64,000 bases of DNA from Chloroflexota bacterium (GTDB lineage Bacteria; Chloroflexota; Anaerolineae; Anaerolineales; Villigracilaceae). The notes beneath the pieces were generated by a model that was given only the letters and a program-made list of their open reading frames with translations, ran no database searches and was not told the DNA's origin. The stretch lies in assembly GCA_026390015.1 (NCBI GenBank), contig JAPLGS010000074.1:1-64000 (forward strand), in the 5' to 3' direction. Both the position numbers and the translations under genes were made by a program. The number at the start of each line of letters is the position of its first letter. Positions within the stretch are counted from its first letter, which is position 1. Below are positions 1-48,549 of the stretch, piece after piece.

Positions 1-90
1 CGCTAGGTGATTCGGCGGCAACGCTTCCCCAATCTGAATCATCTGCTTCAGCGCCTCTTCATAATTCACAGTTTTGAATTTTCGGCTCAT
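1..90 (-). mobile_element. IS transposase, N-terminal fragment cut by the window edge
   Basis: A minus-strand frame starts with ATG at 88-90 and stays open to the window edge, giving 30 residues that begin MSRKFKTVNYEEAL and end with LPPNHLA. An N-terminus in which a Leu-Pro-x-x-His-Leu motif follows about 25 charged residues is typical of DDE transposases of the IS5/IS1182 type. The catalytic residues lie outside the window, so the family call is recall-based. The terminal inverted repeat should lie just to the right of 90 but was not identified. Confidence 0.55.
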
Positions 91-281
91 TTTTGAAGTT
101 TATCATGCAAGGCAATGTCAATCTCCCCGACAAACTGCTAGGATTCAATATGGCTTTGGGCGGAACAATCGCAACGCCAGTCGCCTGGCTGGGAATGGGA
201 TTGTTTATCTTATGGCTTGTGTGGACAAAGCGACTCCCGGTGGAGAGTCCACTCAACGAGATGGAAGCAAGCGTCGGGTAA
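78..281 (+). pseudogene. Possible remnant of a membrane protein gene next to the IS
   Basis: An open plus-strand frame (TTG at 93, ATG at 105) ends at 281. It encodes about 62 residues with one clear hydrophobic segment (roughly residues 20-44) followed by a positively charged stretch. It reads like the C-terminal end of a polytopic membrane protein. There is no good ribosome binding site, and the frame runs back into the transposase leader. I infer that it is the 3' stump of a gene interrupted by the insertion sequence. A chance frame is also possible. No function can be assigned. Confidence 0.3.
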
Positions 282-43296: not shown

Positions 43297-43848
43297 TTAT
43301 TCCGCAAATAACGGCAAATGTCCCAGAGAATAAATATGCATCCATTGCGCGCGATCACCTTCCGTGAGGATCGCGGCTTCGGCCACAACATTTGCATTTG
43401 CCTTGTCCAAAATCATCCGCATTCCTTGTAATGTCGAACCGGTGCTGATCACGTCATCCAGGATGACCACCTTTTTGCCATCGAGTGACTGACGATCTTT
43501 TTCATCCAGGATCAAAAGTTGCGGCTGACCGGTCGTGATCGAAAGCGTTTCCGCCTTGAGCGCATCGCCCATATAGGGTTTGTATGTTTTACGCAAAACA
43601 ACGTATGGTTTTTTTGTTTCCACCGAAAGCGCATACGCCAGCGGAATGGATTTTGCCTCCGCGGTTACGAGAATATCATAATCAACTTCACTAAGTTTTT
43701 TTGCAAGCTCGCGCGCGCAAGCTTGCACTAACTCGGTATCACCAAGAATGTTCAGAATCGCAATGCGCAGGCCGGGCTTGATCTCAAACAAACGCAGTTC
43801 ACGCTTCACGCCGGCGATCTCAATAGAATAGGTTTCACGTTTTGTCAT
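43297..43848 (-). CDS. Purine-type phosphoribosyltransferase
   Basis: 183 residues from the ATG at 43848, fixed by GGAGGAA seven nt upstream; the open frame continues without a site. KKVVILDDVISTGSTL is the PRPP-binding motif, and VTAEAKSIPLAYALS (residues about 60-75) resembles adenine or xanthine phosphoribosyltransferases. It would salvage a purine base to its nucleotide. The base is not decided. Divergent to the split nuclease operon with 102 nt between them. Confidence 0.82.
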   Translation of the reverse strand: MTKRETYSIEIAGVKRELRLFEIKPGLRIAILNILGDTELVQACARELAKKLSEVDYDILVTAEAKSIPLAYALSVETKKPYVVLRKTYKPYMGDALKAETLSITTGQPQLLILDEKDRQSLDGKKVVILDDVISTGSTLQGMRMILDKANANVVAEAAILTEGDRAQWMHIYSLGHLPLFAE

Positions 43849-43950: not shown

Positions 43951-44184
43951 ATGCCAATTATCCGCGCCTCTGAAATTGGAAGTTATCTTTATTGCCGCCG
44001 CGCCTGGCGCTATCGTAAATCTGGAGTTGAATCGGAGAATCAAGCCGAGATGACAGCCGGAACTGAACTTCATCACCAACACGGACGAAAGACCCTCTCT
44101 GCGCTTCTCTTGCGGACCTTTGGTATGATCTTGCTTCTGGCAGCCATGCTCGTGTTTGTGGCATTTTGTACGGCGCAATTATAG
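43951..44184 (+). CDS. Split Cas4/Dna2-like nuclease, N-terminal half with membrane helix
   Basis: 77 residues from the ATG at 43951. IRASEIGSYLYCRRAWRY has Cys15, matching the first Fe-S cysteine of Cas4, and AGTELHHQHGR has His41 (or 42/44), matching RecB-family motif I. Residues 51-72 are a membrane helix, and positive residues before it place the N-terminus inside. The catalytic Asp, Glu and Lys and the last three cysteines are absent; they occur in the protein at 44845-45357. A TATACT box ends six nt upstream of the ATG, so the mRNA is probably leaderless. No cas1, cas2 or CRISPR array is near. Confidence 0.72.
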   Translation: MPIIRASEIGSYLYCRRAWRYRKSGVESENQAEMTAGTELHHQHGRKTLSALLLRTFGMILLLAAMLVFVAFCTAQL

Positions 44185-44191
44185 GAAAACA

Positions 44192-44836
44192 ATGTCCAAC
44201 TTATTAAATCGTCTTGGCTATTTGCAAACCCGTCGCGACCGAACGCCCAATCTTGATCTGGCGCGTGATCTTGTTGCGCGAAATGATATGGCCGGGATTC
44301 GCGAGATCGCCGAAAACATGTGGAACGACAATAAGAATATTCACGGCGACTGTATGAATGTAATGTATGAGATCGGCAGAATTGACCCGGATCTTATTGC
44401 GCCATATTCCGCTGATTTTATAAAATTCCTAAAAAGCAAATATCAAAACATGGTGCTCGGCGCGATCACCGCGCTCGCGGAAATCGCAAAGGTCAAACCC
44501 GAGTTTACCTTCCAACATTTGGACGACATCAAGAAAGTCAAAGAGACCAGTTCCGATATGACCCTGAATAAATCAATTTCCGCGCTGGCAAATACGTCAG
44601 CCGCGAATGTAGAATACAGCAATGTCATCTTTCCATATTTGCTGAATCATTTATCAACCTGTCGTTTCAAGGAAATTCCTGAACATGCCGAGCGGATATT
44701 ACCTGCTGTAAACGAAGATAATCAATATGATTTCATCAAGACTTTGGAAAAAAGAATTGAAGAACTTTCTGGTTCGGATTTTACAAGGTTAAAGAAAATT
44801 ATAAGAATAGCAGAAAAACTAAGTCTTAATTCCTAA
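44192..44836 (+). CDS. Helical-repeat (HEAT-like) protein inserted between the nuclease halves
   Basis: 214 residues from the ATG at 44192, preceded by AGGAAAA. The protein is almost all alpha-helical, with repeated 35-40 residue helix pairs (for example DFIKFLKSKYQNMVLGAITALAEIAK, then FKEIPEHAERILPAV), as in HEAT or ARM repeats. No catalytic motif is seen. It starts 7 nt after the N-terminal nuclease gene and ends 8 nt before the C-terminal one, so the three form one operon. A scaffold that brings the halves together or recruits a partner is a reasonable guess. Confidence 0.6.
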   Translation: MSNLLNRLGYLQTRRDRTPNLDLARDLVARNDMAGIREIAENMWNDNKNIHGDCMNVMYEIGRIDPDLIAPYSADFIKFLKSKYQNMVLGAITALAEIAKVKPEFTFQHLDDIKKVKETSSDMTLNKSISALANTSAANVEYSNVIFPYLLNHLSTCRFKEIPEHAERILPAVNEDNQYDFIKTLEKRIEELSGSDFTRLKKIIRIAEKLSLNS

Positions 44837-44844
44837 TTCCCGCA

Positions 44845-45357
44845 ATGCTCTATCTTGCCCTCGCCCTCCTTATCTTTGCTCTCTTTTTCTTCCGCAAATC
44901 TTCTGCCCAGCGCAAAGAAGCCGGTTTGCCCGGCGGACGGATCATCTACACCGATACGCATGGATGGGGCAAAGTGGAGAAACCGCTCTACTACGCCGCA
45001 ATGGATTTGACCGGCAAGCCCGATTATCTCGTCCAACAAAACGGTAAAATAATTCCTGTTGAAGTTAAATCCGGCCGCGCTCCAGATGCACCTTATGATT
45101 CGCATATTTTTCAACTCGCAGCGTATTGTCTGCTGGTTGAAAAAACCTACGACACACGTCCGCCGTATGGGATCATCCACTACGAGAATAAGGATTTTGC
45201 CATAGATTACACCCGTGAACTGGAAAATGCCCTGATCGATCTTCTTGTGGAAATGAAACGCGATGAACATAAAAAAAATGTCGCGCGCTCGCACGAACAA
45301 AATGCGCGTTGCGCCCGCTGCGGTTACAGGAATGTGTGTGATCAGAGTCTGGCGTGA
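44845..45357 (+). CDS. Split Cas4/Dna2-like nuclease, C-terminal half with membrane helix
   Basis: 170 residues. Residues 1-16 are a membrane helix followed by RKSSAQRK, which places the C-terminus inside. Catalytic residues of the PD-(D/E)XK fold follow: GKPD (D60), PVEVKSG (E73, K75) and QLAAY (Q90, Y94). RCARCGYRNVC gives C156, C159 and C165, the C-terminal Fe-S triad of Cas4. It lacks the first Cys and motif-I His, both present in the 77-residue protein. A weak ribosome site suggests translational coupling to the helical-repeat gene. Confidence 0.75.
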   Translation: MLYLALALLIFALFFFRKSSAQRKEAGLPGGRIIYTDTHGWGKVEKPLYYAAMDLTGKPDYLVQQNGKIIPVEVKSGRAPDAPYDSHIFQLAAYCLLVEKTYDTRPPYGIIHYENKDFAIDYTRELENALIDLLVEMKRDEHKKNVARSHEQNARCARCGYRNVCDQSLA

Positions 45358-45424: not shown

Positions 45425-46288
45425 ATGTCTGAACCCTTTATACCTAAACGACCCGTTGTAACATCATATCCAAAAATGCCGCATGCCTTTGCGGAAGCGG
45501 AAGCCATGACCGCTTACTTAAAAGAAAAAGGCATTGAAGCGCCCTGCGGTTCTCTATACGATGAAGAACTTCGTAAGCGTGTAAAAAAAGGTGAATACGA
45601 TATGCTGATTGCCGTCGGCGGTGATGGAAGCGTGCTGCGCGCAGGTCACCTTTGCGCTCCATGCAGCGTGCCGATCCTCGGTGTGAATCTTGGACGGCTG
45701 GGTTTTATGATCCAGGTTGATCGCAAAGATTGGCGCGAATACTTTGAAAGATTATTCAACGGTGAGGCGTGGATCGAAAACCGCATGATGCTGCGCGCAG
45801 AACATATCCGCGCTGGTGAAAGCCTCGGCAGTTCAATCGCGTTGAATGAAGTCGTCGTCGGGCGCGGACAATATCTGCGCCCCGTTTGGTTGACCGCCTC
45901 CGTGGATGACCGCCAGCTGACAAGTTACGTCGCTGATGGACTCATCGCATCCACTGCCACGGGTTCCACAGCGTATGCGCTCGCAGCAGGCGGACCCATC
46001 CTGCCGCCGGAGTTGCGAAATATTTTGCTTGTGCCAATTGCTCCGCACCTTTCTGTAGATCGCGCCGTGGTTTTATCGGAAGGTTCTTCGGTGAGCATTG
46101 TTGTCAAAAGTGAGAACGCCGTGCTCAGCGTGGACGGTCAACCGCCAATACCGCTAATGGAAGATGACCAGGTAAAAGTTACCGCCGCAGATGTCACCGC
46201 GCAATTTGTCCGCTTTGGAGACCCGGGTTATTTTTATCGCAATCTGACCGCGCACATGAATGAAAACTCTTTAGGATTTCCACGATGA
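45425..46288 (+). CDS. nadK: NAD kinase
   Basis: 287 residues. It phosphorylates NAD to NADP. The motif VGGDGSVLRA holds the catalytic Asp, NEVVVG the Asn-Glu pair, and DGLIASTATGSTAYALAAGGP the Gly-rich region. A TATAAT box lies 9 nt before the ATG (45410-45415), so the leader is only a few nt and there is no Shine-Dalgarno site. It overlaps the zinc-finger gene by 4 nt. Confidence 0.93.
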   Translation: MSEPFIPKRPVVTSYPKMPHAFAEAEAMTAYLKEKGIEAPCGSLYDEELRKRVKKGEYDMLIAVGGDGSVLRAGHLCAPCSVPILGVNLGRLGFMIQVDRKDWREYFERLFNGEAWIENRMMLRAEHIRAGESLGSSIALNEVVVGRGQYLRPVWLTASVDDRQLTSYVADGLIASTATGSTAYALAAGGPILPPELRNILLVPIAPHLSVDRAVVLSEGSSVSIVVKSENAVLSVDGQPPIPLMEDDQVKVTAADVTAQFVRFGDPGYFYRNLTAHMNENSLGFPR

Positions 46289-46818
46289 CAGAAACAGAAA
46301 CCATATCCACTGCAACTTATTGTTATGTTCATCCTGATCGAGAAACGGGACTGCGCTGCAAAAGATGCGAAAAACCGATCTGCGCTTCCTGCGCAGAGCG
46401 CACGCCCACCGGTTATCTTTGCAAAGATTGCGTCCGCTCGCATCAGAAATCATTTGATACTTCTGAATGGTACGATTTTATCTTCGGGTTTTTGACCGCC
46501 GGCATCCTTTCAACGGTGGCGGCAGTCTTGATCATATTGATCAGCAGCATTGGTTTCATTGGCTGGTTTTTAGCGCTTTCAGCCGCTCCGATTGCAGGAA
46601 CTACAATTTCCGAAGGCGTGCGTTTTGTCACCCGCCGCCATCGCTCACGTTCGTTATTTATCACGGTTGGCGCGGGTATGATACTTGGCGCATTGCCTGT
46701 TATGATATTTCAAATATTGAGTATGAATATTTTCGGGATCATCTTTCAAGTGGTTTATTTGATCATCGCTGTGCCGCTCGTTTATACACGTCTTTCTGGA
46801 ATTCAATTATTTAAATAG
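46285..46818 (+). CDS. B-box-type zinc-finger membrane protein
   Basis: 177 residues. The N-terminal part has a treble-clef or B-box-like pattern: CYVHPDRETGLRCKRCEKPICASC, then LCKDCVRSHQ, giving Cys/His pairs for zinc. Two or three hydrophobic segments follow (about 65-100, 125-170), probably a DUF or RDD-like membrane domain. The start overlaps nadK, and recN begins 3 nt after its stop, so nadK, this gene and recN are one operon. The role is unknown. Confidence 0.78.
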   Translation: MTETETISTATYCYVHPDRETGLRCKRCEKPICASCAERTPTGYLCKDCVRSHQKSFDTSEWYDFIFGFLTAGILSTVAAVLIILISSIGFIGWFLALSAAPIAGTTISEGVRFVTRRHRSRSLFITVGAGMILGALPVMIFQILSMNIFGIIFQVVYLIIAVPLVYTRLSGIQLFK

Positions 46819-46821
46819 CCT

Positions 46822-48549
46822 ATGCTAACTGAACTGCACATTCAAAATTTCGCGATCATAGACAAGCTCGATCTGCGCTTTGACTCGGGATTGATCATCC
46901 TTACGGGTGAAACTGGCGCCGGCAAATCCATCATCCTCGACGCCGTTGTTATGCTTATCGGCGGGAAGGCTGATACAACCTTCGTGCGAACTGATTCAGA
47001 CGCCGCGTTTGTCGAAGCGCTGTTCCAGCTCACAGGTCCAGAAAAAGAAGCGGTGCACTTCATCCTCAATCGCGAAGAATTAATGGATGATCCAAATTAT
47101 GTGACACTCATGCGCGAAGTCCGCAAAGAGGGGCGCAGTGTGGCGCGCATCAACGGCCGCACGGTGAATGTTGGATTGTTGAAGGAGCTCGGCGCGTTGT
47201 TGATAGACATCCACGGGCAGGCGGAACATTTATCTTTGCTTGATCCGCGTGCGCATCTTGGCCTGCTCGATCGCTACGCGGAAGTGGGACTGCCCCTTGG
47301 CGACTACCGCCAGACATACCGCACGCTGTTGGATCTGCGCCGTGAATTGTCTGACCTCCGCAAAGCGCAATCGGATGCAGACCGCCGAATTGAAATACTC
47401 ACCTATCAAGCCGAAGAAATTGAATCAGCAAGATTGAAAACCGGCGAAGATGAAGAGTTGCGCAAAGAGCGTGATCGTTTAGCCAACGCCGAATCGCTTG
47501 CGCAAAACGCGCAGGAAGCCTTGGCTGTATTGGATGAAGGTTCTCCTGAAACGCCCGCCGCAACGGACTTGATCGGTCAAGCCGCGCAAGCCCTGGCCAC
47601 TTTGGCAAAAATTGACGAAGGCCAGGCGCAGATGGCAGAACAAGCCGAACTACTGCTTGAAACAATATCGGATGTCATCCACAGTTTGCGCGATTATCTC
47701 GAAGAGATCGAATTCAACCCCAAGCGTTTGGAAGATGTGGAGGAACGCCTGGATGTGATCCACACACTTACGCGCAAATATGGTGGGAATATTTCTGCGG
47801 TGATCGCGTACGGCACTGAGGCGCGCAAGCAGCTTGAGACGATCACTGGCGCCGCAGAACGCATCAACGAATTGGAAATGCAGGAAGCGAAATTATTGGA
47901 AAAACTAGCCAGACAAGGCGGCACACTTTCTGAAAAACGTAAATCAGCCGCGACAGAAATGGGCAAGGGCATCGAAGCAGAACTTAATGACCTGAAAATG
48001 CAATCTGCCCGATTTGGCGTGGATTTCCAAACCAAGCCAGATCTGAACGGTATTCCCATGACTGACGGCACACGCATCGCATTTGACCAGAATGGTTTTG
48101 ACCGCGCCGAGTTTTTGATCGCACCGAATCCCGGCGAGGGACTCAAGCCGCTGGCGAAGATCGCCTCCGGCGGTGAGACCTCGCGTTTGATGCTTGGTTT
48201 AAAAAATGTAATGGCAAAAGCTGATGAAGTACCTTCGTTGATCTTCGATGAAATTGATCAGGGCATCGGCGGGCGGGTGGGCTTGGTGGTGGGGCATAAA
48301 CTTTGGAATCTCTCGCGTACACATCAAGTCTTTTGTGTGACGCATCTTCCGCAACTTGCAGCTTTTGGCGACCAGCATTATCAGGTACAAAAAATTGTGG
48401 ATAATGGTCGCACACTAACCCGCGTTGAAAATCTAAATGGAGAGGCTCGTCTGCTTGAACTCTCACAGATGTTGGGCGAAGTGGGCGAGGGAACTTTGCG
48501 TTCCGCGCATGAGTTAATGCAGGTTGCAAGACAGATCATAAAAGGGTGA
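46822..48549 (+). CDS. recN: DNA repair protein RecN
   Basis: 575 residues, the normal RecN length. It is an SMC-like ATPase for double-strand-break repair. GETGAGKSII is Walker A near residue 29, a central coiled coil covers about 150-380, and ASGGETSRLMLGL (signature) and LIFDEIDQGIGGR (Walker B) lie near residues 460-480. VTHLPQLAAFGDQHY near the end is also typical. Third gene of the nadK operon. Confidence 0.95.
   Translation: MLTELHIQNFAIIDKLDLRFDSGLIILTGETGAGKSIILDAVVMLIGGKADTTFVRTDSDAAFVEALFQLTGPEKEAVHFILNREELMDDPNYVTLMREVRKEGRSVARINGRTVNVGLLKELGALLIDIHGQAEHLSLLDPRAHLGLLDRYAEVGLPLGDYRQTYRTLLDLRRELSDLRKAQSDADRRIEILTYQAEEIESARLKTGEDEELRKERDRLANAESLAQNAQEALAVLDEGSPETPAATDLIGQAAQALATLAKIDEGQAQMAEQAELLLETISDVIHSLRDYLEEIEFNPKRLEDVEERLDVIHTLTRKYGGNISAVIAYGTEARKQLETITGAAERINELEMQEAKLLEKLARQGGTLSEKRKSAATEMGKGIEAELNDLKMQSARFGVDFQTKPDLNGIPMTDGTRIAFDQNGFDRAEFLIAPNPGEGLKPLAKIASGGETSRLMLGLKNVMAKADEVPSLIFDEIDQGIGGRVGLVVGHKLWNLSRTHQVFCVTHLPQLAAFGDQHYQVQKIVDNGRTLTRVENLNGEARLLELSQMLGEVGEGTLRSAHELMQVARQIIKG

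Follow-up and report, generated by a model that had tools for sequence, protein, structure and literature searches.

Known Cas4 systems and the locus studied

The closest described relatives of the system reported here are the Cas4 proteins, solo-Cas4 included (PF01930, TIGR00372), with solved structures such as SSO0001 (4IC1), Pcal_0546 (4R5Q), the type I-C Cas4 (8D3L) and Cas4/Cas1 (7MI4). SSO0001 is a 5'-3' exonuclease of single-stranded DNA that carries about 4.3 Fe per protein, fails to cut when changed to D99A and becomes insoluble when any of its four cysteines is changed (PMC3466216). The known soluble Cas4 proteins consist of one chain with no hydrophobic segment. Here we describe a locus of Chloroflexota bacterium (Villigracilaceae; genome of 4.31 Mb, completeness 95%) where, in contrast, the domain is encoded by two open reading frames (ORFs), the N-half and the C-half, each with one hydrophobic segment. 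The locus was found in a stretch of 64,000 nucleotides (nt), referred to below as the window (assembly GCA_026390015.1, contig JAPLGS010000074.1, positions 1-64,000). The pair resembles solo-Cas4 in fold and motif order, in having one N-terminal and three C-terminal cysteines, and in profile scores above the cut-off, but its motifs I and II are separated by a transmembrane hairpin, or by a larger number of segments, and its genome is without Cas1.

The RecB-type nucleases AddB, AdnA, Exo5 and Dna2, whose nuclease domains have a cysteine cluster, are soluble single chains, several of them joined to helicases. For AddB, a four-cysteine staple that resembles Cas4 has been described (PMC3466216). 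Another relative, the Argonaute-associated Cas4 family protein ACE1 (9IAB, 9IAC), shares the Cas4-family fold (Foldseek E 8.9e-6, VIA Z 11.0-11.6) and has a name that points outside CRISPR, but its solved entries are one chain of about 266 residues. Hudaiberdiev et al. (2017; PMC5704561) had already recorded solo-Cas4 in many Chloroflexi. The main text of their article never uses the words "transmembrane" or "split", and its only "membrane" belongs to the name of an unrelated gene. Our literature searches among open-licence papers found no split or membrane Cas4. What appears to be new is the unusual two-chain membrane architecture of a Cas4-type nuclease, and not the presence of solo-Cas4 in Chloroflexi.

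One Cas4 domain on two predicted membrane proteins

Two conserved membrane chains hold complementary parts of a complete Cas4 domain, and we consider it highly probable that they make up an obligate, membrane-tethered, non-CRISPR nuclease of the Cas4/Dna2 type, whose active site and iron-sulphur (Fe-S) staple would be shared between the chains. A preliminary description of this DNA had recognized both ORFs together with their residues C15 and H41 (N-half) and D60, E73-V-K75, Q90-x3-Y94 and C156-x2-C159-x5-C165 (C-half), all of which are present where it had placed them (Table 1). It gave no account of a third gene between the halves, inserted 7 nt past the stop of the N-half and 8 nt ahead of the start of the C-half. 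The PD-(D/E)XK set (His, Asp, Glu-x-Lys, Gln-x3-Tyr) is complete only across both chains, and the four cysteines are likewise distributed, one on the N-chain and three on the C-chain.

These residues were followed in an alignment of 124 distinct N-halves and 125 distinct C-halves from relatives, including three archaeal loci (33-35% identical to the window C-half), in which the counts are of sequences and not of independent events since many rows are closely related. G37 and H41 were invariant (124/124), and C15 was Cys in 120 of the 124 N-halves, the other four rows being gapped there. D60, E73, K75, Q90, Y94, C156, C159 and C165 were each found in 125/125 C-halves, as were D37, G57, P59, P71, H87, Y113 and H150, of which we take D37, H87, Y113 and H150 to lie outside the standard Cas4 motif set. 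Because of this conservation across both sets of sequences, the residue matches are not due to chance.

The profile scores point in the same direction. The C-half alone reached 42.2 bits against Pfam PF01930 (cut-off 22.7) and 74.1 bits against NCBIfam cas4 TIGR00372 (cut-off 65); its nearest named record, 97% identical, is from an uncultured Chloroflexi bacterium. The N-half alone gave a weak match, below the cut-offs, to the first ca. 45 positions of the Cas4 models (E 2.4e-4 with TIGR00372, 1.4e-5 with the PADLOC Cas4 and 0.061 with Pfam). When the two halves of the window were joined into a single query, as the preliminary description had advised, the scores rose to 91.4 bits (TIGR00372) and 52.5 bits (PF01930). 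The N-half holds Cas4 elements that the C-half is without, and the view that neither half is complete alone holds good. Above the cut-offs, the matches were Cas4 and PDDEXK_1 of the same superfamily, so that no different complete family emerged as the home of either half.

By profile, motif and fold the pair is a member of the Cas4 family, broadly understood. Cas1 (PF01867) had no match in this genome (95% complete), cas2 and CRISPR arrays not having been searched for; by the Cas1 test alone, the pair is not a CRISPR-associated Cas4, which upholds the cas1 part of the earlier claim that it stands outside CRISPR. A role as CRISPR adaptation protein is, without Cas1, not supported for this genome.

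Table 1. Coordinates of the two half-genes, their diagnostic residues (codon positions) and the neighbouring genes in the window.
Feature	Position (nt)	Strand	Description
N-half gene	43951..44184	+	77 amino acids (aa); N-terminal part of Cas4
N-half C15	43993-43995		cysteine
N-half G37			
N-half H41	44071-44073		motif-I His
N-half hydrophobic segment			one, C-terminal, about residues 56-75; rest predicted cytoplasmic
Inserted gene	44192..44836	+	214 aa; HEAT/ARM-like alpha-solenoid by model
C-half gene	44845..45357	+	170 aa; one N-terminal hydrophobic segment, about residues 2-20
C-half D60	45022-45024		PD-(D/E)XK core
C-half E73	45061-45063		PD-(D/E)XK core
C-half K75	45067-45069		PD-(D/E)XK core
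C-half Q90	45112-45114		Q-x3-Y motif
C-half Y94	45124-45126		Q-x3-Y motif
C-half C156	45310-45312		Cys triad
C-half C159	45319-45321		Cys triad
C-half C165	45337-45339		Cys triad
NAD kinase (nadK)	45425..46288	+	downstream neighbour (context)
B-box-like zinc-motif protein	46285..46818	+	Pfam 23.3 bits, just under the cut-off of 24.1; hydrophobic C-terminal part (context)
recN (DNA repair ATPase)	46822..48549	+	presumed name, from the sequence (context)
Phosphoribosyltransferase-like gene	43297..43848	-	divergent upstream neighbour; presumed name, from the sequence (context)

Predicted fold of a joined pair

In ten loci the halves share a reading frame and only one stop separates them. For the related pair L056 we read the stop as Ser and modelled the joined chain from an alignment of 103 rows, of which 10 were joined and 93 were single halves, obtaining a predicted local distance difference test score (pLDDT) of 92.9 and a predicted template modelling score (pTM) of 0.87. 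The model contains two long helices (residues 31-79 and 83-109), corresponding to the membrane hairpin. VIA-align superposed it on the Cas4 part of 7mi4 with a Z of 19.7 and a root-mean-square deviation (rmsd) of 2.5 Å over 177 residues; as the alignment covers the model range 1..254, the N- and C-half together fill one Cas4 domain in this prediction. Z was 13.2 with SSO0001 (4ic1), and among the RecB-type nuclease domains 15.6 with AdnA (7sjr), 13.8 with Exo5 (7lw7), 11.9 with Dna2 (5ean) and 10.4 with AddB (4cej). The top Foldseek matches were Dna2, the type I-C Cas4 and Cas4/Cas1 (E 1e-6 to 1e-5), the Foldseek and VIA lists not being exclusive of other families. Searched against Protein Data Bank (PDB) sequences, the alignment profile found two at E <=0.01, both Cas4, and the window C-half alone a single one, the Cas4 4r5q (E 0.13). 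The predicted Cas4 fold is that of the joined model of L056 only.

Two separate genes

Among 101 related genomes, that of the window included, the C-half was detected in 87, the N-half in 86 and both in 85. In the two genomes with a C-half only (G008 and G040) the contig ends before the expected place of the N-half, and the sole match to an N-half only (G098) is weak and has an internal stop. Wherever one stretch holds both halves (122 distinct pairs), they are without exception separate ORFs; a sequencing error that would join the two frames in other strains, named in the preliminary description as a possible refutation, was thus not seen. With start codons picked by script, the halves overlap in 30 of these pairs (19 by 4 nt, 9 by 1 nt, 2 by 10 nt), and are spaced by 0-30 nt in 38, 31-100 nt in 19, 101-250 nt in 3 and beyond 400 nt in 32. 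We read the inserted gene between the halves in 11 named loci of this last group, in copies 50-86% identical to that of the window, and the spacing suggests its presence in the remaining ones. Some N-halves (e.g., L012, L018, L057) are truncated by the edge of the fetched stretch. A good hydrophobic end is missing from at least one N-half (lowest value -0.62), in all probability that of L094 with its frameshift. A pseudogene or frameshift as the origin of the arrangement is rejected, given the conserved residues and the separate ORFs. One locus, L201 (G299:C30), has a second, frame-broken C-half copy beside a partial N-half, and the same genome has an unbroken pair (L200).

The halves can also be unlinked and yet both kept, as found in 5 genomes of three families. 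The single 3.3-Mb contig of G288 carries the C-half at 244.7 kb and the N-half as far away as 3,051.9 kb. One contig likewise holds the two in G361 (188.7 and 1,076.0 kb), and in G349, G075 and G088 they are on different contigs. The four N-half proteins of this set that we read (G088, G075, G361, G288) look complete. That both halves are retained without linkage argues for two separate proteins meeting after translation. Besides, the relative frame of the two halves varies (59, 33 and 30 of the 122 pairs), and because of this and of the unlinking, read-through or a programmed frameshift is unlikely to be the normal route to one chain.

Membrane topology and natural fusions

The preliminary description had proposed one helix per half and, from the charge pattern, catalytic parts on the cytoplasmic side. 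We counted Lys and Arg in the 12 residues before and the 12 after the hydrophobic segment, limiting the N-halves to those of at least 70 residues (n=119). The count was higher before than after the segment in 110 of the 119 N-halves (equal in 7, lower in 2) and higher after than before in 123 of the 125 C-halves (equal in 2). By the well-established positive-inside rule, such a pattern places both soluble parts in the cytoplasm, as had been proposed.

Natural fusions provide a second view of the topology. We found 31 membrane-type single ORFs, 3 from one Chloroflexota family and 28 archaeal, and in 29 of them the number of segments between the motif-I and motif-II parts is even (2, 4 or 8), as counted with a simple 19-residue hydropathy window by which weak segments may be missed. 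An even number keeps both nuclease parts on one side of the membrane. Single-ORF relatives with an in-out-in hairpin exist in nature, which agrees with the suggestion that such a hairpin had been cut in its external loop. The archaeal fusions L272, L273 and L249 have eight predicted transmembrane segments between nuclease motifs I and II. Of the 11 ordinary Cas4 rows used for comparison, 10 have no hydrophobic segment and the other (L286) has one, close to the distal end of its 459-residue ORF.

Distribution and phylogeny

Profile searches covered genome samples of two phyla, other collections being searched by single proteins. A 29-row C-half profile matched 132 of 301 sampled genomes of the phylum of the window, a count that includes ordinary Cas4, and 98 of 145 genomes from the phylum of L090, a Thermoplasmata archaeon (Thermoplasmatota, as we infer). 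The 50 archaeal loci L226-L275 comprise the 28 fusions and also split pairs, to which four further split pairs (L287-L290) can be added.

The pair is also carried by plasmids, both of Bacillus and of planctomycetes. By tblastn against plasmid records, C-halves were found on three Bacillus subtilis plasmids, one of Paludisphaera borealis and, later, in Singulisphaera acidiphila. An N-half annotated only as hypothetical is located just upstream in the one B. subtilis plasmid inspected of the three (81 aa, E 1.8e-17), in Singulisphaera (profile E 2.5e-15) and in Paludisphaera (5.2e-15); for the C-half copy of Planctomyces sp. SH-PL62 no N-half was found. On the B. subtilis plasmid NRS6107_2 (L334:1959-2923, L336) the order is a DinG/XPD-type helicase (PF13307, 152.5 bits), a hypothetical gene, the N-half, the C-half and hfq. 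Unlike in the helicase-joined nucleases, the helicase is here a separate gene, the second upstream of the N-half. The genes next to this pair include one for an unknown 77-aa protein and a thermonuclease gene. A virus-borne gene is rejected, as phage records gave no match and IMG/VR, in a scan reaching close relatives only, no confirmed relative; copies are known from plasmids.

A tree was built from 138 C-parts, 127 of the membrane type (split, fused or unlinked, thinned) and 11 ordinary Cas4 of the same two phyla, plasmid copies being left out. A branch with support 100/96 separates the membrane type from ordinary Cas4. Fusion requires at least 4 changes in this tree and the split forms are nearest the root, with weak basal supports (89/40, 81/57) and a bootstrap that is not settled; L208 is a long branch. 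The simplest reading would be a single split followed by several re-fusions.

Catalytic residues and cysteines

The catalytic Asp, Glu, Lys, Gln and Tyr are intact in 122/122 sequences of Anaerolineae, 11/11 Chloroflexia-like and 24/24 plus 4/4 archaeal split ones. In the archaeal fused forms they are kept in 28/28, except for the Glu (25/28), which is Asp in the other three. Another pattern was found in family f38 (L304-L331; 29 genomes, 28 with the membrane type). Here the N-half cysteine is retained in 27/27 visible N-halves and the triad in 28/28 C-halves, and the His/Asp/Glu set is incomplete in 11/27. Among the 27 members with both halves the His is kept in 18, of which 16 keep Asp and Glu, and lost in 9, of which 0 keep both (Fisher 1.2e-5, uncorrected for relatedness; the His of L329 is doubtful by its position). 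Judged from these alignments, the joint loss across two genes may be taken as a hint of a shared active site, and the family offers good evidence that the cysteine set can outlive catalysis. The word nuclease, used in the preliminary description for the pair as such, is overstated for the branch where the catalytic residues have decayed and the cysteines are kept. The persistence of the cysteines in spite of residue loss (f38, L208) suggests a function of the cluster that is independent of cleavage.

Gene neighbourhood and the inserted gene

Neighbours were collected from 89 loci (86 Chloroflexota, 3 archaeal), with flanks of differing length and two genomes counted twice, their halves lying apart. 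Clusters of nadK were found in 63 of these loci, the B-box-like protein in 60, recN in 50, SSB in 25, DUF3467 in 23 and the phosphoribosyltransferase-like gene in 12. The names recN and phosphoribosyltransferase-like are what we take these genes to be from their sequence, not from a family search; for the translin, SSB and DUF3467 clusters one representative each was checked. A translin-like cluster is upstream of the N-half in 40 of the 89 loci (e.g., L084; shortest distances 2-6 nt), its representative scoring 26.0 bits against the Translin cut-off of 25.9. As Translin had no match in the window's own genome, it is not obligatory, and we reject it as a general partner. A gene that is presumably HD-domain-like was found upstream in 17 of 39 other Chloroflexota loci. 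The inserted gene found in the subclade of the window was modelled as an all-helical ARM/HEAT-type solenoid (pLDDT 87.8), with engineered and designed armadillo-type proteins as best structural matches (E 1.6e-4), and may encode a third subunit or be a passenger.

Alternative explanations

A number of observations weigh against a two-chain membrane nuclease. By its sequence the N-half is by itself only weakly recognizable as Cas4. In the L056 model the contact between the parts is helped by the single-chain link, only 10 of the 103 rows being joined, and Foldseek superposed the same hits less well than VIA-align (with the best rows of Dna2 and Cas4, TMq was 0.51-0.58 and rmsd 5.7-13.9). Two of the 31 fusions have odd segment counts (L241 with 3, L253 with 7), as has a fused ORF outside those counted (L293, with 3). 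By analogy with the relative 3L0A (PMC3466216), the metal held by the cysteines could be Zn. The nadK-recN neighbourhood may be passive, and a general archaeal neighbourhood is not supported, no cluster exceeding 7 of the 50 archaeal loci (flanks of ca. 1.5-2 kb). When relatedness is counted, the joint loss in f38 comes down to 3 supported independent pairs, with an average of 1.6 in the same direction and 0 in the opposite one, numbers that give no power. Finally, catalytic residues are lost in part of f38; L208 has lost Asp, Glu, Lys, Gln and Tyr and keeps the Cys triad; and the five rows of the group f67/45/51/62/27 are all without the Tyr, one of them having Glu in place of Asp.

These losses, with the cysteines kept throughout f38 and in L208, are what would be expected of a membrane protein with Fe-S (or Zn) that has inherited a nuclease fold and now has a structural, redox-sensing or regulatory duty. 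However, the larger groups keep the five catalytic residues of the C-half, with Asp for Glu in three archaeal fused forms, so that we find this unlikely for the family as a whole; it is likely to be true for the decayed branches only. It is still more improbable, in our opinion, that the C-half suffices by itself as a truncated nuclease, the N-half being an accessory membrane protein with a function of its own and a mere resemblance to the start of Cas4. The C-half does pass the Cas4 cut-offs alone and the N-half does not, but the N-half keeps exactly the C15, G37 and H41 that are missing from the C-half, both are found together in 85 of the 101 genomes, the fusions join them in the Cas4 order and joining lifts the TIGR00372 score from 74.1 to 91.4 bits. 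A last alternative is that mutation or mis-assembly has broken an ordinary solo-cas4 of this genome. The halves are indeed parted by a stop codon and an inserted gene in the window, but the separate ORFs of all 122 pairs (30 of them overlapping), the same arrangement in archaea and on plasmids and the invariant residues make this hardly credible.

Proposed mechanism and significance

For the two-chain nuclease that we favour, the following assembly can be proposed. The N-chain would supply the first of the cluster cysteines, the initial helical part and the His of motif I, and then cross the membrane outwards; the C-chain would begin outside, cross inwards and supply the other motifs (Asp, Glu-x-Lys and Gln-x3-Tyr) along with the C-terminal Cys triad. 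With the two helices paired as a hairpin, the cytoplasmic parts would meet under the membrane, and this contact in the cell would complete the metal site and the four-cysteine Fe-S staple across the chain boundary. By analogy with SSO0001, the staple would keep the two chains joined, and activity would depend on co-assembly and probably also be tied to the loading of the cluster. Most likely, the pair would degrade or trim single-stranded DNA in an end-dependent manner, on the inner side of the membrane. As to the process served, we can only guess. The plasmid copies, the helicase neighbour and the membrane site suggest uptake or control of foreign DNA, and the SSB and RecN neighbours suggest repair with SSB/RecN/translin-type partners; both guesses are tentative, and each is rather doubtful.

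In a wider sense, and with chances that we see as evenly balanced, this may be a widespread non-CRISPR membrane complex for DNA processing in bacteria and archaea, with an active site and a [4Fe-4S] staple built in trans from two membrane proteins and a nuclease switched on by cluster loading and co-assembly. In one lineage the shared cluster would have persisted after the nuclease was lost, which suggests that it has a sensing or structural duty of its own. The natural fusions and the natural unlinking are a ready experiment on Fe-S control of protein assembly, and the copies on B. subtilis plasmids make the pair accessible in a laboratory host. If the reading is true, it would take two different polypeptides to complete, on a membrane, both the single Fe-S cluster and the single metal site of a RecB-type nuclease, and the solo-Cas4-like proteins of Chloroflexota and Thermoplasmatota would gain a location, a missing half and a testable partner.

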